Shown here piece by piece: positions 6,184-41,770 of a stretch of DNA of 41,770 bases. Made by a program: the position numbers and the translations under genes. A model generated the notes under the pieces. It was not told the origin of the DNA. It searched no databases and worked only from the letters and a program-made list of their open reading frames with translations. Source of the DNA: Verrucomicrobiota bacterium. GTDB taxonomy: Bacteria; Verrucomicrobiota; Verrucomicrobiia; Limisphaerales; SIBE01. Each line of letters starts with the position of its first letter. Within the stretch, counting starts at the first letter, position 1. The DNA is taken from assembly GCA_016871535.1 (NCBI GenBank), contig VHCZ01000024.1, forward strand, positions 1 to 41,770, given 5' to 3'.

Positions 6184-6458
6184 AGAGCCTGTCTGAAAAT
6201 TGCGTGGGGTCCTGCGGCGAGGGATTTTGGCTGTGGCCAAGGCGGCGAGCCCGGAGCATCCCCGCAGCGGGCTGTGACGGGTGAGCCAACGCAGGCCACG
6301 GACAAAAGACCCGCCGCCCGGAGGGTTTTCGCAGAAAAAGCCGTCTGGCTTCGTTGCTCCTCGGTCAGAGACCGCTGCGGGTATCCTCCCTCGTCGTGCC
6401 TCGCCATCCGGCCTTTTCTGCGAAAACAGGACTCCCACGGAATTTTCAGACAGGCTCT
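6184..6458 (+). repeat. Variable-stem/conserved-loop element, copy B (275 bp, complete)
   Basis: A complete element between two convergent genes. The 18-nt terminal inverted repeats AGAGCCTGTCTGAAAATT (6184-6201 and the complement ending at 6458) are perfect and extend with one bulge through GTGGGGTCCT/AGGACTCCCAC. An inner stem GTTTTCGCAGAAAA (6325-6338) pairs with 6414-6427 and encloses the loop with CGTTGCTCCTC (6352-6362) and CTCGTCGTGCCTCGCC (about 6390-6405). The element has the same length as copy C. No clear target-site duplication and no open frame for a transposase are seen. Confidence 0.85.
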
Positions 6459-6492
6459 AACAGATGTGATGCGGGAACTGGGCTTCGATGCC

Positions 6493-7050
6493 CTACGCAC
6501 GTTCCATGTATTTCCCCGTGCGCGTATCGACTTTCACCTTTTCACCGGTCTTGATGAACAGAGGAGCCTGAATCGTGATGCCGGTCTCCAGGGTCACGGT
6601 TTTCTGGACATTGTTCGCCGAATCGCCGCGAATGCCTCCCGGCGCGTCCGAGACGGTTAAGACCACGCTGGCAGGCAATTCAACCTGGACAGCCTTGTCA
6701 TTGACGAACGTGACGGTCACGGGCGAATTCTCCACAAGATAATGGCTCGCGTCCCCGACAATCTCGGGCGAGAGCGTCACCGTTTCATACGTTTCCGGAT
6801 CGGAAAACACAAAGTCTTCGCCATCCTTGTAGCTGAATTCCATCTTTCGGGTGGTCATCGGCACGACCTCAATGCGCTCGGTTGAGCTGAAGCGAACGTC
6901 GGACGACTTGCCGGTGCGAATGCTTCGGATGCTGGCCTGAACGAAGGCGCGAAGGTTGCCGGGGGTTCGATGCTGACTATCGAGCACAACGGCGACGTCA
7001 CCATTGTAACTGATGGCCATTCCTTTTCGGAGGTCGTTTGCTGTTGCCAT
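6493..7050 (-). CDS. efp: Translation elongation factor P
   Basis: EF-P binds between the P and E sites and relieves ribosomes stalled on polyproline stretches. The 185-residue protein has the usual three-domain length: a KOW-like N-terminal domain (residues 1-65), a central OB domain with YKDGEDFVFSDPETYE, and a C-terminal OB domain ending VKVDTRTGKYMERA. The loop tip that carries the modified Lys/Arg reads PGNLRAF (residues 30-36), so Asn32 occupies the position of Lys34 in E. coli EF-P and Arg32 in Pseudomonas EF-P. The start ATG at 7050 gives MATANDLRKGM as expected for the family. The gene stands alone, convergent with the PfkB kinase. Confidence 0.97.
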   Translation of the reverse strand: MATANDLRKGMAISYNGDVAVVLDSQHRTPGNLRAFVQASIRSIRTGKSSDVRFSSTERIEVVPMTTRKMEFSYKDGEDFVFSDPETYETVTLSPEIVGDASHYLVENSPVTVTFVNDKAVQVELPASVVLTVSDAPGGIRGDSANNVQKTVTLETGITIQAPLFIKTGEKVKVDTRTGKYMERA

Positions 7051-7319
7051 AAACTGACTAAAGTTATCTGAACTGTGGAACTCAGCGAGCGCGTATCCGC
7101 ATCGGACGGCGCTCTTCGCCGGTCATGACTCGTGCGATTATCGGCTCAGAAACGGGGAACATTCCTGCGAGATCTTTCACGAGAATCCGATTCACTAGCC
7201 GTCGATTCATTCGTAGCCGAACCGAGCGGAAGCGGGAAAATACCGCAGCAGACCGTCAATGCAAGCCTTCTCTTGGAGTTTTTTGAGGCGCGGGAATGCC
7301 GTGAGGCGCCGGCGGAAGG

Positions 7320-7862
7320 TCAAAGGCACCGGATGTATCGCCACATCGGTTTCAGGTCCGCGTCGGCGAGCGCCAGATTTTTGATTTCGTCCTTGCCACG
7401 ATGCTTGATGGCGCGTGCCAGACTCTTCTTGGCGGCGTCCAGGCGGCCCAGTTGACATGCATAACACGCGAGGTTGTAGTGGATGACACTGATTTTGGGA
7501 AAGCGTCTGGCGAGTGGAAGGAGTTGGTCGAATGCTTCCCGAGTCTGTTTCAACTCGTGCAGCGCGTAGGATTGGTTGATCCAACCCGATGGATGGCTTT
7601 TGGCGGCCTGAATCTGGCGGCGGGCCACTTGCAGCGCGGCTGTCCAGGACTTCGCCGCGGCGTGAATGCGCCATTCACCTTCGAGCACATCCGGATGGCT
7701 GCGATGCGCTTCGGATATTCTGTTCAGTTCGTGCCGTGCCTCAGCCGGATTGCCCAGTTCCACCCAGCCAATCGCGGCCAAGAGATGATGAACATCCGGT
7801 GGCTCCAATTTCGTCATCTGAGATTTCAATCGAATTGTTTTCTGGCTGTGGCGGAAATCCAT
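7320..7862 (-). CDS. Small TPR-repeat protein
   Basis: The product is a run of tetratricopeptide helices, a protein-interaction scaffold: HHLLAAIGWVELGNPAEARHEL, WINQSYALHELKQTREAFDQL and IHYNLACYACQLGRLDAAKKSLARAI (each shown in pieces) match the TPR pattern, and the end LALADADLKPMW is typical for family members that finish on a partial repeat. No signal peptide is evident. Start choice is uncertain: ATG at 7862 is used here. ATG 7817 would give a protein beginning close to the first TPR, and 7937 would overlap the divergent GNAT gene. Function unknown; no partner is suggested by context. Confidence 0.7.
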   Translation of the reverse strand: MDFRHSQKTIRLKSQMTKLEPPDVHHLLAAIGWVELGNPAEARHELNRISEAHRSHPDVLEGEWRIHAAAKSWTAALQVARRQIQAAKSHPSGWINQSYALHELKQTREAFDQLLPLARRFPKISVIHYNLACYACQLGRLDAAKKSLARAIKHRGKDEIKNLALADADLKPMWRYIRCL

Positions 7863-7929
7863 TGTGCAGAACCCGACGAAAGGCAATTGTATTCTTGTAG
7901 CCTGAGACGACGAAATCCACTTTTCTGCA

Positions 7930-8895
7930 ATGGCCATTTACCCTTCTCTCTGTCCGCGTCTGATGACTGAGGCCGACTTGGGTTTCGCTGACTTACTGCG
8001 TGGCATCGTTGGCTGGAATCAGACGCTGAACGATTGGCAGCGCCTTCGGGACTACGCGCCCCAAGGATGTTTCATCGCGGAATGGAACGGATCCCCTGTG
8101 GGCACGGCCACAACCACTCGCTATGGAACTGAACTCGCGTGGATCGGAATGCTCCTGGTCCATCCCGACTATCGAGGGCGTGGTGTCGGGCGCGCCTTGC
8201 TCGAACATTGCTTGAATCATCTGAAGGGGACGCCGTGCATCAAGCTCGATGCCACGCCGTTGGGTCAAACGCTTTACGACAAACTCGGCTTTGAAGTTGA
8301 ATGGACGTTGACGCGTTGGGAATGCAAATGCTTTGTCGAGTCAGCCGCCCCACATGTGCCTGGCCGCGAGCATCTGCAAACTCAATCGAACGATGCCGAC
8401 GTGGCGTTAACGCGGGGCGCGGGACGTGGCTCTCCGGAACCACTCGTCATTCCTCACGAATCCGTAACTCTTAAATCACTCAATGCTTCGTCGGTAACTC
8501 AACTTGACGAGATCGACTCGCGCGCCTTCGGCGTCTCGCGTGCCGCTATGTTGGAGCGTTTGGTGGTGGGCAGTTCACGGGCGCTAGCCGCGATCTCGCA
8601 GAATGGAAAAGTCCGTGGCTACGGTTTGCTCCGCGCAGGGTCCAAGGCTTCGTATCTCGGTCCGATCGTTGCGGACACGGCGATTGGAGTTGCCCTGGTA
8701 AAGAGTCTTCTCAATCAAGAGAAGGGACGGCCGGTTTACTGGGATGTGCCGGATGTCAACGGGATGGCGGCGTCCCTGGCGCAAGAACTTGGTTTCGCTC
8801 CTCAGCGGCATTTGGTCCGAATGTTCCTTGGCACAAACAAACAGCCTGGGAACCCGGCGCAGTGCTTCGCGATTGCTGATCCATCCATCGGCTGA
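7930..8895 (+). CDS. Tandem GNAT N-acetyltransferase
   Basis: The 321-residue protein carries two acetyltransferase folds. The first (about residues 8-140) has the acetyl-CoA loop in IGMLLVHPDYRGRGVGRALL, where RGRGVG is the canonical Q/RxxGxG/A pyrophosphate-binding motif. The second (about 185-300) is the degenerate GNAT-like domain often found behind it: VRGYGLLRAGSKASYLGPIVAD followed by VYWDVPDVNGMAASLAQELGF. Such two-domain proteins are usually annotated only as GNAT transferases, and the substrate is unknown. The ATG at 7930 is taken; no strong ribosome site is visible. The larA-like gene follows on the same strand after 61 bp, possibly co-transcribed. Confidence 0.88.
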   Translation: MAIYPSLCPRLMTEADLGFADLLRGIVGWNQTLNDWQRLRDYAPQGCFIAEWNGSPVGTATTTRYGTELAWIGMLLVHPDYRGRGVGRALLEHCLNHLKGTPCIKLDATPLGQTLYDKLGFEVEWTLTRWECKCFVESAAPHVPGREHLQTQSNDADVALTRGAGRGSPEPLVIPHESVTLKSLNASSVTQLDEIDSRAFGVSRAAMLERLVVGSSRALAAISQNGKVRGYGLLRAGSKASYLGPIVADTAIGVALVKSLLNQEKGRPVYWDVPDVNGMAASLAQELGFAPQRHLVRMFLGTNKQPGNPAQCFAIADPSIG

Positions 8896-8956
8896 GGTGC
8901 TCTATGATTCTCTTTTGACCTCGCCGGAACTGAGCGCCATATTCGGACTGCTTCTT

Positions 8957-10219
8957 ATGAAAGTGAAACTTGCCTACGGCCAAGGACACTTGAGCGTCGA
9001 GTTGCCAGATCGCCAAACCACGGTTATTGAGCCGTCCCACACGCCAGGCCTGTCGGATGAAAAAGCCGCAGTGCTCCAGTCGCTTGCTTACCCTATCGCT
9101 GCCCGCTCCTTGCGAGAGTGGATCAAGCCCGGTGACCGCGTTTGCATTGCGTTTACGGACATCACTCGCGCTACGCCGAACGATCGGATTATTCCCTGGT
9201 TGTTGGAAAATCTGGCTCACGTACCGCGTGAGCGGATTACGCTTCTGAACTCGCTGGGAACGCATCGACCCAATACTCAGGATGAATTGGAGAAATTGCT
9301 TACGCCGAAAATTGCCCGCGGTTACAGCGTGATCAACCACGAACCGGAGAATCCGGCGGCGTTGGTCCAGTTTGGCACCACCCGGGATGGCACGCCCGCG
9401 TGGATTAACCGCCATTTTGCGGACGCGGATGTCCGGGTCGTGACCGGTTTTATCGAACCGCATTTTTTTGCCGGATTCAGCGGTGGACCGAAAGGGATCA
9501 TGCCCGGTTTGGCCGGACTACAGACCGTGATGAGCAATCACGGTGCGAGGAACATCAGCGACGCCAGAGCCGCGTTCGGCGTCACGGTCGGGAACCCAAT
9601 TTGGGAAGAGATGCGAGAGATTGCGCTGCGCGTCGGGCCGAGTTTTCTGCTCAATGTGAGTCTGAACGGGCAACGTGAGATTACCGGTGTCTTCGCAGGT
9701 GACTTGATTGAGGCCCACAAGGTCGGGATTGAGTTTGTGCGCCGATCGGCCATGCAGAAGGTGAAGTCGCCTTTCGAGATCGTGGTGACAACCAACAGCG
9801 GTTATCCACTCGATCTGAATTTGTATCAGGGCGTGAAGGGGATGAGCGCCGCGGCGCGCATCATCCAGGACGGCGGCACGATCATTCTGGCCTGTGAATG
9901 CCGTGAAGGCGTGCCGTCGGGAAGCCCGCTCGATTTACTTCTTCGCGAGGTGTCGGGGCCGGAGGAAATCCTGACGAAGCTCGCGGCCCCTGGATTTGTG
10001 CGTCCGGAACAGTGGCAAGCGCAAATTCAAGCGATCATCCAGCGCAGAGCCACGGTCTTGGTTCACAGTTCTCTCGCGGACGAAGTCATTCGCGCAGCGC
10101 ATCTGACGCCGTGTCATGACATCGCGGAGGCTGTTCGCAAAGATCTCGCAAATCGCGAGCCTGACGCACGCGTGGCGGTGTTGCCGCAAGGACCGCTCAC
10201 CATCCCATATCTGTCGTGA
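8957..10219 (+). CDS. larA: LarA-family nickel-dependent racemase (lactate racemase homologue)
   Basis: LarA uses a nickel-pincer nucleotide cofactor bound to a lysine and two histidines to racemise lactate or related 2-hydroxyacids. With the ATG at 8957 the protein has 420 residues. Four key residues fall at a constant offset of five from the Lactiplantibacillus enzyme: His103 (H108) in LGTHRP, His169 (H174) in GFIEPHFFAGF, Lys179 (K184) in GGPKGIMPG and His195 (H200) in VMSNHGARN. All catalytic and cofactor ligands are therefore present. The family covers several hydroxyacids, so lactate is not certain. The cofactor genes larB, larC and larE are not in this window. An upstream in-frame extension to 8744 overlaps the GNAT gene and is rejected. 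Confidence 0.9.
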   Translation: MKVKLAYGQGHLSVELPDRQTTVIEPSHTPGLSDEKAAVLQSLAYPIAARSLREWIKPGDRVCIAFTDITRATPNDRIIPWLLENLAHVPRERITLLNSLGTHRPNTQDELEKLLTPKIARGYSVINHEPENPAALVQFGTTRDGTPAWINRHFADADVRVVTGFIEPHFFAGFSGGPKGIMPGLAGLQTVMSNHGARNISDARAAFGVTVGNPIWEEMREIALRVGPSFLLNVSLNGQREITGVFAGDLIEAHKVGIEFVRRSAMQKVKSPFEIVVTTNSGYPLDLNLYQGVKGMSAAARIIQDGGTIILACECREGVPSGSPLDLLLREVSGPEEILTKLAAPGFVRPEQWQAQIQAIIQRRATVLVHSSLADEVIRAAHLTPCHDIAEAVRKDLANREPDARVAVLPQGPLTIPYLS

Positions 10220-10231
10220 ACTCTGAAGAGC

Positions 10232-10441
10232 ATGCCAAAAGTAAAATGCCCGACATGCCAGAAGCAAGGCCACTGGCTTTCCGGTGCGCACGGCCCCTTT
10301 TGTTCCGAGCGCTGCAAGTTGGTCGACCTGGGCAAGTGGCTCGGCGAAGAGCATCGACTTTCCGAACCGTTGCGCCCGGAACATTTTCAGGGTTACGAGG
10401 AGCTGACGTCAGGCGAACATCTGGATAGTCCTGAATCTTGA
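10232..10441 (+). CDS. yacG: DNA gyrase inhibitor / zinc-binding protein YacG
   Basis: YacG is a small zinc-ribbon protein; the E. coli protein binds GyrB and inhibits gyrase. The 69-residue product has the four zinc cysteines at 6, 9, 24 and 28 (KCPTCQ...PFCSERCK) followed by the family's LVDLGKWLGEEH segment. A GAAGAG sequence lies just upstream of the ATG. It begins 12 bp after larA stops, so the two are probably co-transcribed. The rRNA operon leader follows. Confidence 0.93.
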   Translation: MPKVKCPTCQKQGHWLSGAHGPFCSERCKLVDLGKWLGEEHRLSEPLRPEHFQGYEELTSGEHLDSPES

Positions 10442-10606
10442 TTCTAGCGTCCCCGAAAGGTCACATCTTTCGTGACCACAACGGTTGGAACTCGCGGAAA
10501 AATATTCTAAATATTCTTCACAAATCTCTTGCATGTGATTTCAAAATGATTAAGTGTCTCGCTCCTGTTTGTTAGCGGTGCGGTTTGAAAAGTCGCGAAA
10601 AACCTG

Positions 10607-10634
10607 TTGACAGAAAGAAGAAAACAAATAAGGT
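10607..10634 (+). promoter_or_regulatory. Candidate sigma70-type promoter of the rRNA operon
   Basis: TTGACA at 10607-10612, a 16-base spacer, then TAAGGT at 10629-10634. The -35 box is a perfect consensus, the -10 box is weak. It is the only good -35 seen in the roughly 430 bp between yacG and 16S. Transcription would start near 10641. Confidence 0.5.
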
Positions 10635-10669
10635 ATCCGCCGCTCTTAAACAGACGAGATTCGATGTCT

Positions 10670-10710
10670 GAGATACTGCTGTTATCAGTGAGCAGATCTC
10701 GGGTTTTTTT
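10670..10710 (+). terminator. Intrinsic terminator-like hairpin in the rRNA leader
   Basis: GAGATACTGCT (10670-10680) pairs with AGCAGATCTC (10691-10700) with one bulged A, a 10-nt loop, then GGG and seven T residues (10704-10710). The shape is that of a Rho-independent terminator. It lies downstream of the candidate rRNA promoter, so it could act as an attenuator, end a short leader RNA, or terminate yacG read-through. The CGAGAT at 10655-10660 could compete for ATCTCG at 10696-10701. Confidence 0.5.
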
Positions 10711-10750
10711 GTCCCCTAGCGGGGAAAGATTTAGAGGTGGAAGCACCTCG

Positions 10751-10780
10751 TGCTCATTGAAAACTGAATTGTGCGATAAG
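10751..10780 (+). promoter_or_regulatory. boxA-like antitermination motif and 5' arm of the 16S processing stem
   Basis: TGCTCATTGAAAACT (10751-10765) resembles boxA, the NusB/NusE site for rRNA antitermination. The overlapping 10755-10780 is complementary to 12548-12573 over 26 positions, with one G-U pair, and brackets the 16S gene as expected for an RNase III-type stem. Confidence 0.7.
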
Positions 10781-10877
10781 TGAGAGCCCTCGAAGACCGT
10801 TGGTTAAAAGCCAACCGGGATTTGAGTTTAATTTAGTCATTGGGGTGTTTTCACCCCGAGAGAACAAACTAGCGTTT

Positions 10878-12456
<1,579 letters not shown>

Positions 12457-12547
12457 TAGACGCGACCGACATAAGGTCGGCTCGCGTGAGGTCGAACCGG
12501 ATGGATTTGGAGCTATATAGAAGATTCCGAATTCGGAAGGTGGCTCC

Positions 12548-12573
12548 CTTATCGCACAGTTCAGTTTTCAATG
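12548..12573 (+). other. 3' arm of the 16S processing stem
   Basis: Complementary to 10755-10780 with one G-U pair. Together they form a 26-bp helix enclosing the 16S precursor, a typical RNase III substrate. It lies between the 16S 3' end and tRNA-Ala. Confidence 0.75.
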
Positions 12574-12689
12574 GGTTTACTGTTCTTTTCACGTCCAGAA
12601 GGTTCGAACTCGATTGTGTGAGGTCTTAGGAAGTTCGTAGTGCGAAGTGAATAAGCCCGCGATGAATTTGCTTCTGATCCTCCGTGCGT

Positions 12690-12765
12690 GGGGCTGTAGC
12701 TCAGTTGGTAGAGCGGTAGCTTTGCAAGCTATAGGTCAGGAGTTCGAATCTCCTCAGCTCCACCA
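12690..12765 (+). tRNA. tRNA-Ala (TGC)
   Basis: A 76-nt cloverleaf with acceptor GGGGCTG/CAGCTCC, D-loop AGCTCAGTTGGTAGAGC, anticodon loop TTTGCAA (12721-12727, anticodon TGC), T-loop GGAGTTCGAATCTCC and encoded CCA. It is the first of two tRNAs in the 16S-23S spacer. Confidence 0.97.
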
Positions 12766-12793
12766 GGATTGAAACCTCGAATTCTCTAGGATT

Positions 12794-12870
12794 GGGCCTG
12801 TAGCTCAGTTGGTTAGAGCATGCGCTTGATAAGCGCAGGGTCACTGGTTCAAGTCCAGTCAGGCCCACCA
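12794..12870 (+). tRNA. tRNA-Ile (GAT)
   Basis: A 77-nt cloverleaf with acceptor GGGCCTG/CAGGCCC, anticodon GAT at 12828-12830 in loop TTGATAA, T-loop CTGGTTCAAGTCCAG and encoded CCA. It follows tRNA-Ala; in many bacteria, including E. coli rrn operons with both tRNAs, the order is Ile then Ala. Confidence 0.97.
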
Positions 12871-12961
12871 ACCAAAACGGTCCCGAGAATCTGAGTGCAC
12901 GGGACGTGCATGGCTGGACTAATCTGATAAGCTTTCCATTGGCGGAATGACCCGCTAATGA

Positions 12962-12981
12962 TGTTCTTTGAAAACTACACA
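12962..12981 (+). promoter_or_regulatory. boxA-like motif and 5' arm of the 23S processing stem
   Basis: TGTTCTTTGAAAACT (12962-12976) resembles boxA. The overlapping CTTTGAAAACTACACA (12966-12981) pairs with 16046-16061 with one G-U pair, enclosing the 23S gene. Confidence 0.7.
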
Positions 12982-13052
12982 TAGGGATAGAATTAGGGCG
13001 ATTACATTTCGCTGAGTTTCTATTGAGTTTCATATCAATAGATAAACTTTGT

Positions 13053-15939
<2,887 letters not shown>

Positions 15940-16045
15940 CTTTTCCCAATCAGTGCCGCAGTTGGTTCGGCCTAAGAGTCGAATCTAGGCGGAGTGAGTG
16001 GGTGAGCGATTTTCCAACTCGCGATATTATTCGCCAAGTGCCTTG

Positions 16046-16078
16046 TGTGTAGTTTTCAGAGAATTTGCTCTTTGATGG
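16046..16078 (+). promoter_or_regulatory. 3' arm of 23S processing stem and boxA-like motif before 5S
   Basis: 16046-16061 pairs with 12966-12981. TGCTCTTTGATGG at 16066-16078 is the third boxA-like motif of the operon; one precedes each rRNA. Confidence 0.6.
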
Positions 16079-16141
16079 TTGAATTGATATGAGTCGTTTT
16101 GGGCTTCGTATTCGCGGTTCAACCATGAATAGTCACTTTTT

Positions 16142-16256
16142 TTGGTGGCCATGAAGCTGTGGTCCGACCCGTTCCCATTCCGAACACGGCCGTCAAACTC
16201 AGCATTGCCGATGGTAGTACATGTAAAGCTTGTGCGAGAGTAGGTTGCCGCCAGAT
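16142..16256 (+). rRNA. rrf: 5S ribosomal RNA
   Basis: About 115 nt with TGGTGGCCATGAAGC at the 5' end, CCGTTCCCATTCCGAACACG in the loop B/C region, and GTAGGTTGCCGCCA closing the terminal helix. It is 200 nt downstream of 23S. Confidence 0.95.
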
Positions 16257-16433
16257 TTCTTCTGAAGCCAATGTCTCATTTCATTCTTTTCCAGGGCTGA
16301 TCTGTGATGTCGGATTTGGCGCTGCAACTGTTCTAGCCGGACACCCAGTTCGTTGAGGCGCGGCAAAACCGTAGAAAACCTGTAAACGAGGAGAAATGAG
16401 GCTTGCCAACCCGCATTGCCGAGACTAGTCTCC

Positions 16434-16771: not shown

Positions 16772-16787
16772 TTGATGCCTGCGCTCT

Positions 16788-28309: not shown

Positions 28310-28665
28310 TAGAGCGAGCCCGTCCCGCGAGCCGTGCGACAGGCTTGGAACACGTCGGCTCGCCGGGGACAGGTTCGCCTTGCCTCCCTCAATGCCCAAC
28401 GGAAGCTTCCCGGCCTCCGAGCCGTGCGCACGACCCTTGAACCCATCGCCGGTAGGGCGGTGGTGCCGCATCGACCGAAGACCGGCTGCGCAGCAACGCA
28501 GCCCTACCGGGTTCATGGGAAGTTCCCACGGCCAAAAAGCCGTGCAGACGGCCCTTGAACCGAAAACCATGCGGACCGCAGCCTTCAGGCTGCTTCCGCG
28601 CACTCGCCGGAGTCCAGCGCTGAAGTGGCCGAAAGGCCACGGTCGGAGGAGACGGTTCATGGGAA
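28310..28665. repeat. Palindromic module array 2
   Basis: A chain of palindromes fills the gap between macB and the SDR gene. It has a worn copy of the GGTAGGGCGAG unit (28310-28384), a GGTAGGGCGG...GCAGCCCTACC unit (28451-28508), a small CACGGCCAAAAAGCCGTG hairpin (from about 28528), and a 105-bp unit (28556-28660) with nested GCAGCCTTCAGGCTGC and GTGGCCGAAAGGCCAC stems. TTGAACC precedes units and GTTCATGGGAAG follows them, as in arrays 1 and 3. Confidence 0.8.
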
Positions 28666-31626: not shown

Positions 31627-31695
31627 GGCCGCGGGCGCGCCTTCAAAGTTCTCCGCGCGTTGACAACCATTTCCCGAGTCGCCACCTTAGCCGCC

Positions 31696-33315
31696 ATGCC
31701 CCGTTGTTCGCTCGGTCGGCGCGGACTCTTGTTCAGCCTTATCGTTTTCGCAGGCACCATTGTTGCGGACGCTCCTCCCCCTGAACCTGACGGTAGGGCG
31801 AGCCTGTCCCCAGCGAGCCGAGTCGGACGTGTTCCAGTCACGTCGAGCGGCTCGCCGGGACGGACTCGCCCTGCCGGCGGTCCGTTCCATTTCCACCACG
31901 AAGGAATCCTCGGCACCTCTTTCGATCTGATCGTTCGAACCGACGCAGCGGAAGTGGCGTGCAAAGTCGAGCAATCTGTCCTCGCTGCAATCGAGCGTCT
32001 CCGAAGAATTCTCAGCACCTACGATCCGGCCAGCGAAATCAGCCGGCTCCCTGTCAACCCCAAGCCGATGCGCTGTTCGCCTGAATTGTTCGAAGTGTTG
32101 AGCGCTTACGAAACCTGGACCGCGCGTTCTCGCGGCGCGTATCAAGGCCAACTGGGAGAACTCATCCGCGCCTGGCGCGCCGCGGAACAGGCCGGTGTGC
32201 CTCCGGCCTCGGCTTCCCTTGCGCGAATCGTGCGGAACGTGTCAACGCCTGCCTGGACTCTCAACGCTTGCGAACGGACCGTCCAGCGCCTCTCGCCGCA
32301 ACCGCTCAATCTGGATTCGCTCGGGAAAGGATACATCCTCGGCAAAGCTGTCGCCGCTGCGCGCGCCGCCGCGCCATCGATCGCCGGACTGTTGCTTAAC
32401 CTCGGCGGCGACATCTTCGCGAGCGGCCTGGAAGCGCCGTCGCGTCCCTGGCTCGTGGGCGTGGCGCATCCGCGAGACCCCGCGGACAACGCCGCGCCGG
32501 TCACGCAGGTGTGGCTGGCGGACCGCGCGATTTCGACCAGCGGGGGTTACGAGCGCGGCTACACGATTGCGGGCCGCCGCTATTCGCACATTCTCGATCC
32601 GCGCACCGGCAGGCCTGCGGAAGGCATTGCATGCGCAACTGTTGTCGCCGCGGACAACGCCACCGCCAGCGCGCTGGCGACCACATTGTGCGTGCTCAAG
32701 CCGGAAGAAGGCCTGGCGCTGATCCGAGCAACACCTGGCGCGGAATGCCTCATCATTGCCGCCAGCGGCGAACAGTTCCGCAGCGCGCAGTTCGCGGCGC
32801 TCGAAATCCCCGCCCCCGGCGGCGCGAAGAAAGCGAACGAAGCCAAACCGAGTTTGTGGCCAAAGGATTTTCGATTGACGCTGACGCTCACGCTGAAAGG
32901 CCCGGCTGGCGGAGGCGGCGGGTATCGCCGTCCTTACGTCGCGGTTTGGGCGGTGAATGAAAAGGGCGCGCGCGTCCGCACCATCGTGCTTTGGGGCAAC
33001 CAGGCGCGCTACTTTCCCGACCTTTACGATTGGTCGTACGGCGAGAAGGATCGGCTCGATTGGGCGGCGACGATCGCGCGCGCGACGCGTCCGCCTGGCC
33101 GCCATCGCGTGACCTGGGACGGGCGCGACGATTCCGGCGACCCGGTTCCTCCCGGCACCTACACGATCTTTGTAGAGGCAAATCGCGAGCGCGGCACTTA
33201 CGCCAAAGAGAGCGCAAAGATTTCGTGCGGCTCGGAGCCATCCCAAAGCGTCGTCAAAGCCACGTCAGAGTTTGAAGAAGCCCAACTCACGTACGGCCCT
33301 TCCCCGTCCGAATAG
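31696..33315 (+). CDS. apbE: FAD:protein FMN transferase (ApbE) fused to DUF2271
   Basis: ApbE (flavin transferase) attaches FMN to Thr/Ser residues of exported redox proteins. From ATG 31696 the 539 residues comprise a signal peptide (RRGLLFSLIVFAGTIVADA), a 28-residue block encoded by a palindromic repeat, the ApbE domain (about 62-375, with LDSLGKGYILGKAV, LLNLGGDIFASG and the metal/FAD segment YSHILDPRTGRPAEG), and a C-terminal DUF2271 domain (WGNQARYFPDLYDWSYG, RVTWDGRDDSGDPVPPGTY). DUF2271 often accompanies ApbE and PepSY proteins in periplasmic flavinylation clusters. The PepSY-type membrane gene follows after 14 bp, supporting a joint function. Confidence 0.93.
   Translation: MPRCSLGRRGLLFSLIVFAGTIVADAPPPEPDGRASLSPASRVGRVPVTSSGSPGRTRPAGGPFHFHHEGILGTSFDLIVRTDAAEVACKVEQSVLAAIERLRRILSTYDPASEISRLPVNPKPMRCSPELFEVLSAYETWTARSRGAYQGQLGELIRAWRAAEQAGVPPASASLARIVRNVSTPAWTLNACERTVQRLSPQPLNLDSLGKGYILGKAVAAARAAAPSIAGLLLNLGGDIFASGLEAPSRPWLVGVAHPRDPADNAAPVTQVWLADRAISTSGGYERGYTIAGRRYSHILDPRTGRPAEGIACATVVAADNATASALATTLCVLKPEEGLALIRATPGAECLIIAASGEQFRSAQFAALEIPAPGGAKKANEAKPSLWPKDFRLTLTLTLKGPAGGGGGYRRPYVAVWAVNEKGARVRTIVLWGNQARYFPDLYDWSYGEKDRLDWAATIARATRPPGRHRVTWDGRDDSGDPVPPGTYTIFVEANRERGTYAKESAKISCGSEPSQSVVKATSEFEEAQLTYGPSPSE
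31792..31875. repeat. 84-bp palindromic module inserted in frame in apbE
   Basis: The arms start GGTAGGGCGAGCCTGTCCCC and end GGGACGGACTCGCCCTGCC, and the centre carries GTCGGACGTGTTCC. Close copies are at 37969-38050 (same strand) and 4463-4546 (opposite strand). The 84-bp length is exactly 28 codons. The reading frame stays open and encodes GRASLSPASRVGRV...SGSPGRTRPA between the signal peptide and the ApbE domain. Confidence 0.85.
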
Positions 33316-33329
33316 AATCCCCTCCAGGA

Positions 33330-33923: not shown

Positions 33924-33933
33924 ACGGTAGCCC

Positions 33934-34065
33934 GGCAATTACGAAAGAATCTACTGGGACTTCGTGGCGGCGGACGGACAAAAGCCCCGGCCGGACGACA
34001 TCACGAAGCCGCTTCAAACCGTCATGAAGGAATTGGGGTTTACGAACGACGATTTGTTCATCTGA
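33934..34065 (+). pseudogene. C-terminal remnant of an unidentified protein
   Basis: Forty-four codons, open from about 33934 and ending at TGA 34063-34065, read NYERIYWDFVAADGQKPRPD, then DITKPLQTVMKELGFTNDD and LFI. The composition is protein-like, but there is no start codon near its beginning and the upstream neighbour stops at 33923. I do not recognise the family. Between 34066 and 34281 no gene is seen. Confidence 0.4.
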
Positions 34066-34281
34066 CGACAGATCCACCGGAGACCCTTAGTCAACAGCTC
34101 TGCCTGCCTGCCGCGAACCGCGATTTGCGTTTGCCAAATCCTCCGGGGTCCCTTAGCTTGCCTGCCGATGTCAGTGGCTCAGCCCGCAACAACGACGACT
34201 TTCTAGGCGTTCACGAACAACGTGGACGCCAACGCCTCGCACTTTCCAGTTCGAGGCGTTTTTGTTTGGTGTAGCTCAATC

Positions 34282-34577
34282 AACCACGGATGGACACGGA
34301 TGAACACGGATAAGGGACCCGATCTAATCAGACCCGCGGGGGACAAATTGCTGCTCCGGGAAGAGACGCACCAAATCCTCGCTTGCTCGTTTGAGGTGCT
34401 CAACGAGTTGGGGCACGGCCTCCACGAGAAATGCTATGAAAATGCATTGGTCGTGGAATTCGCCCTTCGCAAGATCGGATTCGCCCAACAGCGTCAGTTT
34501 GAGGTCCTTTACAAAGGCCACAAAGTCGGGCTTTTCATCCGCCTCCCATCCGTGTCCATCCGTGTCGATCCGTGGTT
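34282..34577. repeat. Inverted-repeat pair framing the GxxExxY remnant
   Basis: AACCACGGATGGACACGGAT at 34282-34301 matches the reverse complement of 34558-34577 at 19 of 20 positions. Each side continues with further CCATCCGTGTCC-type half-repeats. A related stretch is near 29595. The right copy abuts the thrS start region. Confidence 0.75.
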
Positions 34578-34584
34578 AAAATAG
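34300..34584 (+). pseudogene. Truncated GxxExxY-family protein
   Basis: The frame MNTDKGPDLIRPAGDKLLLR...FEVLNELGHGLHEKCYENAL, then RQFEVLYKGHKVGLF, matches the GxxExxY family, whose name motif is GLHEKCY here. Normal members (about 120-130 residues) continue after VG with a DLVVExxIIVELK-like segment. Here the protein runs instead into the CCATCCGTGTCC repeat (IRLPSVSIRVDPWLK), so the C-terminal third is lost. The N-terminal codons also come from the flanking repeat. Family function is unknown. Confidence 0.75.
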
Positions 34585-34589
34585 ATGTT

Positions 34590-36767: not shown

Positions 36768-36850
36768 ACATGTGGCGGAAAATTTTTCAATCGATGTTCT
36801 GAGCGAAAACCGCGCTTCCAAACGAAACTGTGAGCAGCTAAGAAGCAACC

Positions 36851-37090
36851 ATGAAAACGATTTCGATATCCGAACTGCGCTCGAAGACCCGCACTCTGGT
36901 GCGCGCGTTGGAAAACGGCAAGTCAGTGGGACTGACGAATCACGGCCGCAAGCTCGCTCAAATCCTTCCAGTACGGCTGTCCCACGGCATCAGTGCAACC
37001 GATCCGCTCTACCGATTCCATCGCCACGCCGACGCCAAAGCGAAACCGCTGACCGACCGGGAGATCGACCGCTTCGTCTATGGCGGCTGA
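36851..37090 (+). CDS. Phd/YefM-type antitoxin of a PIN toxin-antitoxin pair
   Basis: A 79-residue protein with the Phd/YefM fold at the N-terminus: MKTISISELRSKTRTLVRAL, then GKSVGLTNHGRKLAQILPV. The N-terminal part binds DNA for autoregulation; the C-terminal part (about 50-79) should wrap the toxin. The stop overlaps the toxin start by 11 bp, the normal arrangement for type II pairs. Its own operator is not resolved in the 83-bp gap after thrS. Confidence 0.85.
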   Translation: MKTISISELRSKTRTLVRALENGKSVGLTNHGRKLAQILPVRLSHGISATDPLYRFHRHADAKAKPLTDREIDRFVYGG

Positions 37091-37499
37091 ACCGCTGTTC
37101 ATTGATTCGGGTGGGTTTTATGCGCTGGTTTCGCCCAAAAGCGATGTCCACTCGCACTCCGTTGCCATCATGGAGGAAGCCGCTAGACAGAAGCGTCGGG
37201 CAATTACCACAGACCACATTATTGACGAAACGGCCACATTGCTTCGCGCTCGTGGCCTTTCCAAACTATTGGTGGAATTCTTCCGCATGACGGAAGAGTC
37301 GCAGGCTTTGACCGTTGAATGGACTACCCCCAACCGCTTTGCAGCCGCCCGCAAGTTCATGCTCAAACATCTGGATCAGGAGTTTTCATTTACGGATTGT
37401 GTGAGTCTCGTCGTGATGAAGGAACTTCGTCTGATCGATGCGCTGGCAACAGATCATCACTTTCGCATCGCCGGATTCAACCCGTTGCTAGGGGAATGA
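37080..37499 (+). CDS. PIN-domain toxin (VapC-like ribonuclease)
   Basis: A 139-residue PIN domain nuclease. Candidate metal-binding acids are Asp9 (FIDSGGFYAL), Glu50 (DHIIDETATLL), Asp106 (SFTDCVSLVVMKEL) and Asp125 (ALATDHHF), in the order and spacing of active VapC-like toxins, which cleave tRNA or rRNA. The ATSDxHF-like ending fits the family. Translationally coupled to the antitoxin through the 11-bp overlap. Confidence 0.88.
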   Translation: MAAEPLFIDSGGFYALVSPKSDVHSHSVAIMEEAARQKRRAITTDHIIDETATLLRARGLSKLLVEFFRMTEESQALTVEWTTPNRFAAARKFMLKHLDQEFSFTDCVSLVVMKELRLIDALATDHHFRIAGFNPLLGE

Positions 37500-37589
37500 G
37501 GGAAAGGCGGGCGTGAAGAAAATAGCGTGAGCACGCCCGGCCAAAGAAGCACGAGAACCCATTCCAACACTCATGCGCTTCCAAGTCCT

Positions 37590-37968
37590 CGCTGAAGGCG
37601 AACCCCGCCCCGTCGTTGGAAACCGATCCGTCGTGGAACCGAACGCGGCTCTCCCGCCAACTGTGTGAGCGCTGGCATTGGCGCAACGGGGCCGGGCGTC
37701 TGAAGGACATGGCCTGCCGCAGTCTGCTTTTGAAGCTGGAGGAGCGGGGGTTGATCCGCTTGCCGCCGCGGCGGACCGCGTCCGTGAACGGCCTGCGCAA
37801 TCGGCAGGTTCAAGCCGTCGAATGCGAGCAGAGTCCGGTGCAGGGTTTCCTGGCCCAGTTCCAGCCTTTGCAACTGCTGCCGGTGCAGAGTCCGGCAGAG
37901 GGGGCGCTGTTCCGGTTCCTGCTCTGGCGCCATCATTACCTGGGCTATGGCAACACGGTCTCGGACGG
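37590..37968 (+). pseudogene. N-terminal remnant of a DruA-like (DUF4338) protein
   Basis: The translation has DPSWNRTRLSRQLCERWHW, AGRLKDMACRSLLLKLEERG, LIRLPPRR and, later, FRFLLWRHHYLGYGNTV. This order matches the N-terminal part of DUF4338/DruA proteins, known from Druantia defence loci and from transposon-like solitary genes. The frame then enters a palindromic module at 37969 and the conserved C-terminal half is missing. No good start codon is present (TTG 37616 at best). Whether it came from a defence locus or a mobile element cannot be told. Confidence 0.7.
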
Positions 37969-38210
37969 TAGGGCGAGCCTGTCCCCAGCGAGCCGAGTCG
38001 GACGTGTTCCACGCACGTCGAGCGGCTCGCCGGGACGGACTCGCCCTACCGGGTTCATGGGAAGTTGCCACGGCCAAAAAGCCGTGCACACGGCTCGTGA
38101 ACCGAAAACCGTGCGGACCGCAGCCTTCAGGCTGCTTCCGCGCACTCTCCGGATTCGAGCGTTGAAGCGGCCTAAAGGCCACGGTCCGGAGGAACGGTTC
38201 ATGGGAAGAG
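37969..38210. repeat. Palindromic module array 3
   Basis: A GGTAGGGCGAG unit (37969-38050), almost identical to the one in apbE, then GTTCATGGGAAG, a CACGGCCAAAAAGCCGTG hairpin, and a 106-bp unit (38098-38203) nearly the same as 28556-28660. The module order after the first unit is the same as in array 2. It truncates the DruA-like remnant. Confidence 0.85.
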
Positions 38211-38281
38211 TTCAGGTCCAAAAGGAACAGGACGCTTGGCCATCGGCAAATGAGAGGTTCGACTTTGTCTTTCAAAAACGG

Positions 38282-38953
38282 TCATCTCAGGAAGATCTCG
38301 TTCGTGGCGCCTTTGAATTCCACCGTGACGCTGTGGCGCTCGATTCCGACCACGCGGGCGCCGTCCACGGTGTCACCCATGAACAGCGTCCGGTTGTTGA
38401 TCAGCACGGACGGTTTGGACATGCGGAAATAAATTCCACCCAGCTTGAGCGGCGGGAAGGTGACATTCCGCGAAGCCTGTTGCGCTGGCACTTCGGTGGC
38501 GGGGGCCTGCGGTGACGGGCTTTCGTCCTTCGCCGGCGCAGTGGGCACGATCGTGTTCGGAGTTGTCTCCGCAACTTTGACGGGCGGAACGCTTGCCACG
38601 GTGGGCGCGGGCGTCGTGGAAGGCGCGGAACTCGGCGGCGGGGCCGGCGAGGCGACCGTCGTCTTTGGTTCGGGCGGGGAAGTCGTGGCGGGGAGCGGAG
38701 TCTCAGTTTGGACAGGTTTGGGAGAGGCGGATTCGGTTTGGCGCGCCTCTTGAAGCGCTGCGTCCAGTTTGGCCACGGCTTGGAACGGTTTGGTCAGGTT
38801 CGACGCGATGGGAGATTTGCCTGCGGCGGGCGCCTGGTTTGTGGCCGGTGGTTTAACGGCTGCGACCTGGAGGGGCGCGGGCGCGTTAAGCCACTGCCAG
38901 AGGTACCAGCAACCCGCCAGCAGCAGGACGGCGGCTCCGCCAACGAAGATCAC
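38282..38953 (-). CDS. GspB-like secretion protein, membrane and C-terminal part
   Basis: The product has one membrane helix (MIFVGGAAVLLLAGCWYLW), a long Pro/Ala/Thr linker (about 30-150), and a C-terminal domain with FPPLKLGGIYFRMSKPSVLI, LINNRTLFMGDTVDGARV and GIERHSVTVEF. This is the type II secretion system GspB/general secretion assembly domain, which works with the ExeA ATPase in aeromonads to assemble the secretin. The start given is GTG at 38953. Four codons upstream, in the same frame, is a TAA that separates it from the conserved cytoplasmic start. See the next entry. Confidence 0.7.
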   Translation of the reverse strand: MIFVGGAAVLLLAGCWYLWQWLNAPAPLQVAAVKPPATNQAPAAGKSPIASNLTKPFQAVAKLDAALQEARQTESASPKPVQTETPLPATTSPPEPKTTVASPAPPPSSAPSTTPAPTVASVPPVKVAETTPNTIVPTAPAKDESPSPQAPATEVPAQQASRNVTFPPLKLGGIYFRMSKPSVLINNRTLFMGDTVDGARVVGIERHSVTVEFKGATNEIFLR

Positions 38954-38965
38954 CGAGTTTTTCCG

Positions 38966-39076
38966 TTAGGGTTCAGGATTCTCGACGGGTTGGAGCGGGG
39001 GGTCCGCGGGAGATTCCGGCGGTGGCTTCGCGGGGCCTTGCCGGGCGCGTTTGAGAGCATCATTGATCAGGCTCAT
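38966..39076 (-). CDS. GspB-like N-terminal cytoplasmic piece ending at an in-frame stop
   Basis: MSLINDALKRARQGPAKPPP is the canonical start of GspB proteins. The frame stops after 36 residues (VENPEP then TAA at 38966-38968) and, in the same frame, RKNSV leads into the membrane helix of the next piece. The ATG overlaps the exeA stop as ATGA (39073-39076), the sign of translational coupling. The simplest reading is one gene split by a nonsense mutation or a base-call error; reinitiation at the GTG is possible. Confidence 0.65.
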   Translation of the reverse strand: MSLINDALKRARQGPAKPPPESPADPPLQPVENPEP

Positions 39077-39888
39077 ACGTTGATCTTTCCTTCCAATTCC
39101 CGAATGGCCACGCCGGCCATCCGATAGTCGATGCATTCCCGCTGCTGAACGTAACCGGCCAGGAGGCATTTGTCACACACGGCGTTCACGAGGCGAGGAA
39201 TGCTCTGGCTGTAGCGGTAAATCCGCCAGAGCGCCGTCATCGTGAAGTAAGGCGAGCCTTTGGCGCCGGACACTTCCAGGCGATGCTGCACGTAACGTCC
39301 AACCTCGCCGCGCTTCAAAGGGCGCAAGTGATACCGCACCGTGATCCGCTGCCGCAGTTGCCGCAATTCGAACGCATTCAACCGGTCGCGTAATTCGGGC
39401 TGGCCCATCAGCACAATCTGGAGAAGCTTGCGGTCGTCGGTTTCCAGATTCGAGAGCAGCCGGACTACTTCGAGCAGGTCGTTGGTCAAATCCTGGGCTT
39501 CGTCGATGATGAGCACGGCGTCGCGCTGGTCCGCGGCCAGCTTCAAGAGGAAGTCGTTCAGGACGGCCACGGTTTCCAGGCGGTCCATGCCGTGCACGGC
39601 CAGGCCGAATTCCATCGCGATCGCTTTGATGAGTTGGTCCGCATTTAGGACCGGATTGAGAATGAGCGCGGTCGCAAACCGGTCGCCGAGCTGTTCGAGC
39701 ATGGCCCGGCAAATGGTCGTCTTGCCGGAACCGACTTCGCCCGTAAGTTGCACGAAACCTTTGCGCTCCCGGATGCCGTAGAGCAAGTGATTGAACGCCT
39801 CGCGATGTTTGGCGCTGTAAAACAGAAACCTTGGGTTGGGCGTCAGATCAAACGGCGGCTCCGTCAGACCGTAGTAGTCCAGATACAC
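39073..39888 (-). CDS. ExeA-like AAA ATPase (type II secretion)
   Basis: ExeA-type ATPases, with GspB/ExeB, help insert the secretin multimer across the peptidoglycan. From GTG 39888 the 271-residue protein begins VYLDYYGLTEPPFDLTPNPR, the standard family opening, with Walker A GEVGSGKTT near 50-58, Walker B VLIIDEAQDL and sensor-like IVLMGQPEL. It ends before the C-terminal peptidoglycan-binding part seen in longer ExeA proteins. A longer frame upstream to 40173 overlaps the ccsA-like gene and lacks family sequence. Overlap with the GspB-like start indicates a two-gene unit. Confidence 0.88.
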   Translation of the reverse strand: MYLDYYGLTEPPFDLTPNPRFLFYSAKHREAFNHLLYGIRERKGFVQLTGEVGSGKTTICRAMLEQLGDRFATALILNPVLNADQLIKAIAMEFGLAVHGMDRLETVAVLNDFLLKLAADQRDAVLIIDEAQDLTNDLLEVVRLLSNLETDDRKLLQIVLMGQPELRDRLNAFELRQLRQRITVRYHLRPLKRGEVGRYVQHRLEVSGAKGSPYFTMTALWRIYRYSQSIPRLVNAVCDKCLLAGYVQQRECIDYRMAGVAIRELEGKINV

Positions 39889-40048
39889 AAGTTTTCTATA
39901 GCCAAAACGGAGGGCGGAGAGAAGCAAAAGGTTTTCCTGGCGCGGAGAGACGAGCGGCTTCGGTCTCGAGGCTCCCGACCTCAGCGAAAAGAGTTCGAGA
40001 TTACGTGGGAGGGCGCAAACTTGTGGCTGCTGTGCGCGCTGAAGCGGT

Positions 40049-40891
40049 TCAGCAACCTGCCTTCCGCAGCCAGCCTGCGGGGGCCAATCCGACCAGAAAG
40101 ACAACGAGATTGGAGGCGATAACGGCCAGCAGGAGCCCCGCGTAGTTCGGCGCTCGGTAGGAGTGGACCTCACTCAATAAATTTCCTCCGAACCACGCCA
40201 GGCTGACGACGATGTTACCCAGGACACTCAGGAGGAGGATGCTCCCAGCCGTGACCCAGCGGACCCGGTGGAGCGTCAGGAAACAAATCAGCCAGATCAC
40301 GACGCACAGCCCTCCGGTTTCCTTTGCGTCCCAAGCCCAGTAACGGCCCCATTCGAGACGAGCCCAAACCGTCCCGAGCACTACGCCGATCGCCGTCAGG
40401 GATGTGGCCACACAGCCAAAAGTGAAACTGACCCGAGAGAGCGATTGCAGGCGAATCGGAGTGAAGTCGGCAACGCAACGTTGGCCGACGAAACAAACCC
40501 CAAGTGTCCCGAGGAGGAACACGCTCAAGTATCCCAGCGTCACGGTGAAAACGTGGATGGCCAGCAAGAGACTCGATCTGCCGGTCTCGAAGCGTGAGGA
40601 CAGAAAGACGGCCAGGAGGAGCGCCGCAGCAACGCCGACCCCGGCCACCGCTCTGACCGGCCACCACGTGCCACGCTCCAGCTTCTGAAACTCTGATGCG
40701 ATGGCCGGCGGTGATCCCAGTTGCCGGACCGCAAGTTGGAACGCTTCAGCCTCGGTCATTCCCGACCGGACAAGCAGGTCCACGTGCTCCCGCAAATGAC
40801 TTTCCAATTCATCGGCCGCATCACGCCCGACGTGGCGCGCAGCCATCAGGGTCTTGCGCCATTCGGTGATCCATGATTCCAGATCATGCAT
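40049..40891 (-). CDS. HAAS (permease prefix) domain fused to a CcsA-like membrane protein
   Basis: Residues 1-75 form the HAAS/permease-prefix domain (LESWITEWRKTLMAARHVGR and AADELESHLREHVDLLVRSG, then EAFQLAVRQLGSP), typically linked to PadR repressors. After a helix come about six membrane spans with a CcsA/CcmC-type heme-handling core: AIHVFTVTLGYLSVFLLG, GTVWARLEWGRYWAWDAKET with the WWD-like motif, HRVRWVTAG and LLSEVHSYRAP. CcsA proteins bind heme through conserved histidines and the tryptophan-rich loop in cytochrome c maturation. The fusion of the two domains is unusual. The start overlaps the padR stop by 8 bp. No ResB/Ccs1 partner is nearby. Confidence 0.85.
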   Translation of the reverse strand: MHDLESWITEWRKTLMAARHVGRDAADELESHLREHVDLLVRSGMTEAEAFQLAVRQLGSPPAIASEFQKLERGTWWPVRAVAGVGVAAALLLAVFLSSRFETGRSSLLLAIHVFTVTLGYLSVFLLGTLGVCFVGQRCVADFTPIRLQSLSRVSFTFGCVATSLTAIGVVLGTVWARLEWGRYWAWDAKETGGLCVVIWLICFLTLHRVRWVTAGSILLLSVLGNIVVSLAWFGGNLLSEVHSYRAPNYAGLLLAVIASNLVVFLVGLAPAGWLRKAGC

Positions 40892-41219
40892 GGTTCGGCC
40901 TCCAGAGTTGATTCAAGGTTGAAGAAACCAACGTCCATTGCTTCTTCTGCTGGCGGAGCAACTTTCGCCCCTCCGGTTGCAGCGAGTAATACTTTCGTTT
41001 GCGACCGGACTCGGATTTTGTCCAGCGACTGCTCACCAGACGCTGGTCTTCGAGCCAGTGCAAAACGGGATACAGCATGCCGTCGGTCCACGCGATTTGT
41101 CCGCCAGACAGATCCTTGACGCGCTGAATGATTGCATAGCCGTAACTCTCGCCTTCGGAAAGAATCGAGAGCACCAGCGCCACCGAGGAAGCGGCCACCA
41201 ATTCCTTTTCAAGTTTCAT
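40884..41219 (-). CDS. PadR-family transcriptional regulator
   Basis: A winged-helix repressor of about 111 residues from ATG 41219 (MKLEKELVAASSVALVLSIL). Family features are ESYGYAIIQRVKDLSGGQ, WTDGMLYPVLHWLEDQRLV and SGRKRKYYSLQPEGRKLL. A longer frame to 41246 would start inside the promoter palindrome. PadR dimers bind inverted repeats, and a perfect one covers its own promoter, so autoregulation is likely. It overlaps the HAAS-CcsA gene, as PadR-HAAS pairs commonly do; it probably controls that gene. Confidence 0.93.
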   Translation of the reverse strand: MKLEKELVAASSVALVLSILSEGESYGYAIIQRVKDLSGGQIAWTDGMLYPVLHWLEDQRLVSSRWTKSESGRKRKYYSLQPEGRKLLRQQKKQWTLVSSTLNQLWRPNHA

Positions 41220-41227
41220 GGCCCCAG

Positions 41228-41256
41228 AACATACATTGCACTGCAATGTATGTCAA
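41228..41256 (-). promoter_or_regulatory. padR promoter with palindromic operator in the spacer
   Basis: On the minus strand TTGACA (41256-41251) is followed by 17 bases and TATGTT (41233-41228). A perfect 25-bp palindrome (41229-41253, half-site ACATACATTGCA around one central base) fills the spacer and both inner box edges. Transcription should start near 41221-41222, two or three bases before the ATG. Confidence 0.75.
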
Positions 41257-41301
41257 GGAGAACCGCGCGGCTGCGCGGCTGCGATGTCGATTCGCCGACG
41301 G

Positions 41302-41363
41302 TGGGGCGACGCTCCTGTGGAGCTTTTCTTCGATGGCATTGGCTTGGCAGGAGCTTCGCCCCA
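41302..41363. repeat. Palindrome TGGGGCGACGCTCCTG / CAGGAGCTTCGCCCCA
   Basis: The 16-nt arms at 41302-41317 and 41348-41363 are complementary with one mismatch and enclose a 30-nt loop. It lies between the padR promoter and repeat copy C. Confidence 0.65.
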
Positions 41364-41367
41364 TCTT

Positions 41368-41642
41368 AGAGCGTGTCCGAAAATTCCGCGGGGTCCTGTT
41401 TTCGCGCCAAAGGCCGGATGGCGAGGCGCAACGAAGGAGAATATCCTCCCTGGATCTTCGACTGAGGAGCAACGAAGCCAGGCGGCCTTTGGCGCGAAAA
41501 CCCTCCGGGCGGCGGGTCTTTTGTCCGTGGCCTGCGTTGGCTCGGTCCTTACAGCCCGCGTTGGGGATGCTCGGACCTCGCCGCCTTGGCCACAGCCAAA
41601 ATCCCTCGCCGCAGGACCCCGCGCAATTTTCGGACACGCTCT
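41368..41642 (-). repeat. Variable-stem/conserved-loop element, copy C (275 bp, complete, inverted)
   Basis: This is the same element as copy B in reverse orientation and with the same length. Terminal inverted repeats are AGAGCGTGTCCGAAAATT on both ends and extend through GCGGGGTCCT/AGGACCCCGC. The inner stem GTTTTCGCGCCAAAGGCC (41398-41415) pairs perfectly with 41484-41501. Relative to copy B, changes on one arm are matched on the other. The loop block GAGGAGCAACG (41464-41474) is conserved. No target-site duplication is obvious. Confidence 0.85.
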
Positions 41643-41643
41643 C

Positions 41644-41770
41644 AGGGTCTGTGCAAAAATAAATTCCGGTTTTGCTGGAGGCGATTTCGCTTTCTGGCGA
41701 GGCACGACGAAGGAGCATAGCCAGGGCTCTGCGACTGAGGAGAAACGAAGCCAGAAAGCGAAATCGCCCC
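41644..41770 (-). repeat. Variable-stem/conserved-loop element, copy D (cut by window end)
   Basis: It begins one base after copy C with AGGGTCTGTGCAAAAAT, a diverged version of the terminal repeat. The inner stem GGCGATTTCGCTTTCTGGC (41680-41698) pairs perfectly over 19 bp with 41750-41768, and its sequence is unlike the stems of A, B or C. The loop keeps GAGGAGAAACG (41737-41747) and GGCACGACGAAGGAGCATA. The right end lies outside the window. Confidence 0.75.

Follow-up and report, generated by a model that had tools for sequence, protein, structure and literature searches.

Four stem-loops in a 41,770-nucleotide contig of a Verrucomicrobiota bacterium (VHCZ01000024.1 of assembly GCA_016871535.1; this whole contig is the window referred to below) share a structured core that is conserved as a unit in six bacterial phyla, where it is set in unrelated terminal repeats or lies at the 3' ends of Bifidobacterium genes. 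An earlier note, made from the letters of the window alone, had described a fixed loop on interchangeable, always self-complementary stems, and had proposed that the folded form is what spreads or is recognised, with stem arms exchanged by a copying process such as template switching. Our analysis confirms the observation and partly supports the interpretation: the loop is indeed the fixed part and the pairing of the stems is kept while their sequence changes, but in the genome of this bacterium (hereafter the host genome) the stem-loops spread as ordinary DNA of miniature inverted-repeat transposable elements (MITEs).

All four stem-loops, with the conserved blocks and self-complementary arms described, are matched by a covariance model of the core (Table 1), three of them being close to, or contained in, the model's own alignment. 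In the hairpin core, two near-invariant strands (about TTCGTTGCTCCTCRGTC and TCCYTCGTCGCGCCTY), alike in the manner of direct repeats, form an internal loop that has a variable apical hairpin on one side and a variable outer stem on the other. The four elements are real as such, yet each is part of a larger unit of ~270 bp, a MITE with the layout terminal repeat, left hairpin, short linker, right hairpin, terminal repeat, and two diverged partner hairpins had gone unlisted. In each complete MITE of the window the left and right hairpins are inverted relative to one another and have cores of the same kind; the left hairpin is the more diverged. The folding z-scores of the four stem-loops are -1.37 (1-90), -3.07, -4.85 and -5.66; the stem-loop at 1-90, taken alone, folds unremarkably, and the complete family A element reaches z = -11.07 (DNA parameters). 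No T run was seen by eye after the arms of the window copies, no terminator scan having been made. In some hairpins (window 6225-6307 and 41519-41601, and the second ones of loci L376 and L383) the loop strands are seemingly swapped for short self-complementary stretches such as GTCC/GGAC, CCCG/CGGG or GCGGAGAGC/GCTCTCCGC, like a closed, variable counterpart of the open loop.

The 6.67-Mb draft of the host genome contains 284 occurrences of the loop block CGTTKCTCCTCRGTC (158 forward, 126 reverse) and none of its reversed control. Named genomes were scanned with the first loop strand alone, which brought in at least 118 loci, mostly from metagenome bins; the phyla reached are a sample among the matches listed. 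The second loop strand, which played no part in selection, accompanies the first, with four mismatches or fewer, in 87 of the 116 usable occurrences among these matches listed, compared with 27 of 2320 shuffles; the other 29 resemble chance matches to a 17-letter word or broken copies, and include 13 of the 14 occurrences outside the five main groups. In 12 hand-chosen copies from five phyla (Verrucomicrobiota, Myxococcota, Acidobacteriota, Elusimicrobia and Bacteroidota), the identity of the second loop strand is 0.878, whereas the outer arms reach 0.33 and the apical stem 0.545.

The setting of the core differs between groups. Judged by eye, copies in Myxococcota, Elusimicrobia, other Verrucomicrobiota and Chitinophagales lie at CTAG or CTNAG between terminal repeats unlike those of the host genome, and the terminal-repeat setting of Acidobacteria and Flavobacteriales copies is less clear. 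Scored with the covariance model (counts per genome are lower bounds, 150 candidates being scored), whole genomes contain at least 61 copies in one Chitinophagales genome, at least 70 in one Acidobacteria genome, at least 17 in one Elusimicrobia genome (1.4 Mb), at least 11 and at least 2 in two Flavobacteriales genomes, and at least 5 in Bifidobacterium saguinibicoloris. The distribution is patchy: a strict pattern is present in 7 of 58 genomes of relatives (own genome included), in 1 of 288 genomes of the phylum (own only) and in 1 of 140 Myxococcota genomes (the centre genome only), with no match in viral contigs, and the family A element is without match in plasmids and phages. The covariance-model search of related genomes, a check that the earlier note had suggested, found the core in 2 of 96 genomes of the phylum under stricter filters, own genome included, and in other phyla. 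Fuzzy-pattern searching was done with nhmmer. Several Myxococcota and Acidobacteria copies (L109, L132, L135, L181, L203) have a second conserved strand pair, about GATSCATCC and GGGCGCCTCG, that flanks the outer stem and is possibly a second internal loop.

Changes in the stems are compensatory. In an alignment of 60 copies with different stems, 21 pairs (14 outer, 7 apical) are paired in 80.2% of cells (52.1% shuffled), with 353 double-change cells (132.7 shuffled) and a covariation score of 0.608, compared with 0.172 (sd 0.012) for shuffled and at most 0.206 for slid versions. These figures favour pairing, since poorly paired rows had been removed beforehand (L013, L155, L131, L165, L112, L194 and L120 as chimeric or poorly paired, besides rows with N and near-duplicates), and the shuffle counts are no probabilities because the rows are related in groups. 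The number of pairs showing a double change, 20, is not unusual, being reached in 132 of 500 shuffles. Over 72 stem classes, from which no such rows were removed, arms score 49.8 with their own partners and 23.4 with swapped ones. Within 17 close families (109 copies), with pairs less than 25 nt apart left out, 12 of 14 double changes are Watson-Crick, where 1000 shuffles give a mean of 3.7 and a maximum of 8; six of the twelve are transversions on both sides, changes that have no wobble intermediate. Without the 25-nt cut the count becomes 17 Watson-Crick, 3 G.T and 12 bad double changes, the bad ones mostly in short flank folds. Rows below 75% identity were dropped from both counts (without the cut, those named are L314, L334 and one L109 copy), and L271 and L279 were excluded from the pair counts of family A. 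The stems of neighbouring families can be aligned by eye through compensatory steps, so that the earlier view of stems unrelated between copies was too strong; so was the word "always", given the chimeric copies with unpaired arms described below.

In the host genome the carriers are a known kind of element, and their ends and flanks lend no support to spread there as a folded single strand. Family A comprises 35 intact copies from 41 sources, with TNA on both sides in 35 of 35 and identical flanks in 30 of 35, compared with an expectation of about 14 for independent sides (~41% by chance given TNA); for family C both ends were obtained from 10 of 16 sources, and the flanks are identical in 10 of 10. 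The insertion site is CTNAG, with the 3-bp TNA duplicated, and core copies occur as nearly identical bursts at unrelated sites. Terminal inverted repeats together with identical TNA flanks are the mark of a double-strand DDE transposase preferring CTNAG, and IS5-type transposases acting in trans most likely mobilise the window MITEs. A candidate source is found at locus L105 of the same genome, where a DUF4096/DDE_Tnp_1 transposase (IS5-type) is enclosed by ends showing one and two mismatches to the family A repeat over 17 bases, and 2-3 to the F-type repeat; the flanks of this element, TGA and TAA, do not match each other. At L097 (3041-3182), a MITE of ~140 bp has F-type ends around an unrelated palindromic interior, and hence ends and interior are separable. 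The carriers share with IS5-type MITEs terminal inverted repeats, TNA duplication in CTNAG, high copy number, the absence of coding capacity and a candidate transposase of this type with similar ends in the host genome; they differ by their structured interior core, which is common across phyla and unrelated terminal repeats. The available text of PMC4482050 describes C/TNA/G targets in NuwaII, a eukaryotic group of the PHIS superfamily. A crude gene caller gave no clear preference in the orientation of neighbouring genes at 30 host-genome loci. Many contigs of the draft (C3, C4, C11, C14, C23, C24, C42, C48, C49 and others of G000) start 14-23 nt before the loop block; the assembly thus breaks at these hairpins, which probably makes the copy number an underestimate.

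In Bifidobacterium, the core lies at gene ends. Here 17 of 41 sampled genomes (centre genome included) carry 2-8 copies by the covariance model, 90 in total (lower bounds), and 60 of the 90 listed copies were selected by hand and fetched, with priority given to tandem sites and the set of one genome and the remainder taken in approximate order of score. A stop codon that closes a frame of 80 codons or more stands beside the core on the same strand in 55 of the 60, within a span reaching from 60 nt ahead of the model start to 14 nt past it, compared with 22 of 60 in antisense and 643 of 3000 random places; it begins 1-22 nt before the model start in 54 copies and exactly 1 nt before it in 17. 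The near arm of the hairpin is the gene end itself. The far arm is complementary to this gene end with a score of at least 20 in 45 of 55 copies (swapped arms, 16 of 2161), and at least six paired bases fall within the stop codon or the coding part in 37 of 55. For the 15 genes with at least two copies, own arms score 25.8 (42 copies), compared with 15.0 when the arm comes from another occurrence of that gene (88 comparisons). An example is guaA, where the far arms of four copies ending IEWE track GAA TAA, GAG TAA, GAA TAA and GAG TGA, the last with one mismatch. Core-bearing genes identified by profile are nusG, nucS, purD, aspS, glycogen phosphorylase, an ABC-F protein, pntB, L-lactate dehydrogenase, araD, araA, upp, guaA, nrdE and guanylate kinase, with 3 of the 20 genes put to profile search lacking a profile match, and the same genes carry the core in several species. 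Terminal repeats beyond the arms were not seen by eye, no systematic test having been made. At L371, L372, L374 and L375, two or three cores follow one gene in tandem on the same strand, ~105-110 bp apart.

Altogether, we lean towards an account in which template switching provides the arms and selection keeps the core. The loop strands are unpaired and could not be maintained by pairing-driven mutation; we infer that the folded core is under selection. The arms would be held complementary and lengthened by template switching during replication, which would place an inverted copy of one arm, or of the adjacent flank, on the opposite side and thereby give a new stem at a new site; copying beyond the end of the hairpin would make the flank a new far arm, a pattern that matches Bifidobacterium. 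Arm copying of this type fits one family A copy whose interior is inverted between the terminal repeats, or equally has two bases swapped (L271), another in which the sole mismatch of the outer repeat stem has changed into a pair (L279), the paired transversions and the Bifidobacterium far arms. These cases make the arm exchange proposed in the earlier note plausible rather than established. Template switching at inverted repeats, in the portions of PMC8794818 and PMC8604942 available to us, likewise comprises inverted copying of arms, making or mending of stems in one event and inversion of the spacer; arm homogenisation and spacer inversion are its published marks (PMC8604942, same portion), and it can also create and mend stems (PMC8794818, likewise). 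It is a mutation process and not an element, however, and leaves the conserved loop unexplained.

A wider reading, which we put forward tentatively, is that a core common to at least six phyla and bound to no single transposase lands beside a stop codon or in a MITE and gains its stem by inverted copying of the flank. Each host gene end or terminal repeat would then become half of a hairpin, and the cell or the element would read the purine-rich strand (in Bifidobacterium, the one antisense to the gene) in its folded form.

Several observations weigh against the account that we favour. In three of the 15 Bifidobacterium gene groups (aspS, one ABC-F and one araA copy) the advantage of the own arm is little or none. 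Single-arm changes outnumber paired ones by 169 to 14 in the close families, so that most copies simply decay, and L271 and L279 are single copies each among 35. The search for autonomous partners in the host genome covered PF01797 (13 matches) and PF01609 (4 matches), and only L105 has similar ends; no partner transposase for families B to E was found among these loci, and of 30 PF01609 loci tested in 14 other genomes (13 with matches) none has ends on both sides, three showing weak one-sided end matches. Finally, L294, L288 and L013 have unpaired arms and look like chimeras of two families. L294 consists of the left half of family C and the right half of family A, joined in an 11-nt common stretch; L288 and L314 are similar joins, L314 resembling one between an L097-type MITE with F-type ends and a family E element; and in L013 a B arm faces a C-like arm. 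Such copies point to recombination at or near the loop, and assembly error may also be their source.

The alternative that survives best is a functional structured RNA, whose folded transcript acts, e.g. at mRNA 3' ends, with compensatory selection on each copy, no special copying of arms and MITEs as mere carriers. Such an RNA typically combines covarying stems with a conserved internal loop, as is seen here, and the sense orientation, the position at stop codons and the recurrence in the same genes of several Bifidobacterium species speak for it. The wobble pairs of the outer stems, in contrast, run the wrong way for the would-be mRNA strand. On the CGTTGCTCC strand, A.C exceeds G.T by 92 to 60 in outer-stem classes (37 classes vs 16, sign test 0.005) and by 17 to 3 in Bifidobacterium gene-end stems, and the ratio at one Bifidobacterium apical pair is 28 to 0. 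Apical stems outside Bifidobacterium lean in the opposite direction (A.C 8, G.T 14), and within families the two kinds of single change are almost balanced (68 to 51, p 0.14). The wobble counts lean to the purine-rich strand and argue against a plain mRNA hairpin; the A.C excess in outer stems may stem from selection on the other strand, or from biased mutation or repair. Double transversions make up half of the paired changes, and near-identical bursts at unrelated sites are unexpected for a function of each copy. We thus regard the structured RNA as rather unlikely, if worth keeping in mind.

Ordinary MITEs, in which the shared loop reflects common descent only and the stems of neutral hairpins diverged by chance, would account for the terminal repeats, the duplications and the bursts of near-identical copies. 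This is improbable given arms that are 33% identical and still paired beside a loop 88% identical across five phyla, and given the gene-end arms in Bifidobacterium; the covariation counts contradict it unless the alignment is wrong throughout. A reading frame that follows the element in L035 seems to resemble a RAYT-type Y1 transposase. Movement of elements like repetitive extragenic palindromes (REP) or REPINs by such a Y1 (RAYT) transposase on a folded single strand would suit the two inverted hairpins per element, this frame and the 13 Y1_Tnp matches of the host genome, but is very improbable in view of the TNA duplications and terminal inverted repeats, of 11 of the 13 Y1_Tnp loci lacking the tested ends (the other two have a separate MITE to the side, one being L097), and of stems far longer than the 6-9 bp (GTAG) and 8-9 bp (CGTC) of such repeats in the available part of PMC3733652.

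The earlier note knew of no named family with this behaviour, and the core appears to belong to none. Rfam matches only rRNA and tRNA in the window at gathering thresholds; by E-value, seven loci gave one weak match and 20 Bifidobacterium loci three, all below gathering scores. No description of the shared core, its behaviour or its gene-end form was found in the literature and Rfam searched, nor any occurrence of six 15-letter motif strings in that literature. Integron attC sites have conserved core sites at the stem base and act with an integrase, whereas here the stem is the variable part. GTAG- and CGTC-tagged REP, REPIN and BIME repeats, as far as the available part of PMC3733652 describes them, are likewise dispersed palindromes, mostly outside genes, with complementary changes in stems and some tandem or inverted pairs; the present elements have instead long stems, a conserved internal loop of 17+17 nt, TNA duplications and no short tagged stem, although the tag was not searched systematically. 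Bacterial MITEs with RNA-type structure (Delihas, PMC2229807; Borrelia repeats, PMC2674063; excerpts of both) also show compensatory stem changes including transversions, some lying directly after or over gene ends, but those described in these excerpts are lineage-specific, with neither a cross-phylum core nor an arm complementary to the end of its own host gene.

The elements of the window are collected in Table 1, the right end of the family B repeat having been fixed by comparison with five intact family B copies. The window also contains a complete rRNA operon (10878-16256: 16S, two tRNAs, 23S and 5S by Rfam) and two further repeat families, both partly palindromic and unrelated to the core, one at 4410-4461, 28510-28561 and 38052-38103, the other at 31789-31877 and 37964-38052.

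Table 1. MITEs and hairpins carrying the core in the 41,770-nt window.
Feature	Position	Strand	Remarks
Right part of family B MITE	1..126 (about)	+	cut by contig start; right terminal repeat ends GGACCAC, then TTA
Right hairpin of family B MITE	3-86	+	covariance-model match
Complete 273-bp MITE, F-type ends GAGCCTGTCTGAAAATT / AATTTTCAGACAGGCTC	6185..6457	+	TAA on both sides
Left hairpin of MITE 6185-6457, core diverged	6225..6307	-	model match, 39.2 bits
Right hairpin of MITE 6185-6457, canonical core	6336..6416	+	model match, 84.1 bits; sequence in model's own alignment
Complete 273-bp family A MITE, ends GAGCGTGTCCGAAAATT	41369..41641	-	flanks TTA and TCA unequal
Right hairpin of family A MITE, canonical core	41409..41490	-	model match, 82.4 bits
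Left hairpin of family A MITE, core strongly diverged	41519..41601	+	model match, 28.3 bits, E 2.7e-5
Left part of family C MITE, end GGGTCTGTGCAAAAATAA	41645..41770 (about)	+	cut by contig end
Hairpin of family C MITE, canonical core	41685..41763	-	model match, 85.8 bits

If these readings are right, the core would be a widespread, nameless structured nucleic-acid motif, whose near-invariant strands could be used to find binders. It would provide many natural replicates of stem replacement with pairing kept, which the available text of PMC8794818 treats as an open question in RNA evolution. In Bifidobacterium, housekeeping genes, e.g. nusG, guaA, upp, ldh and nrdE, would have a hairpin lying across or next to their stop codons.

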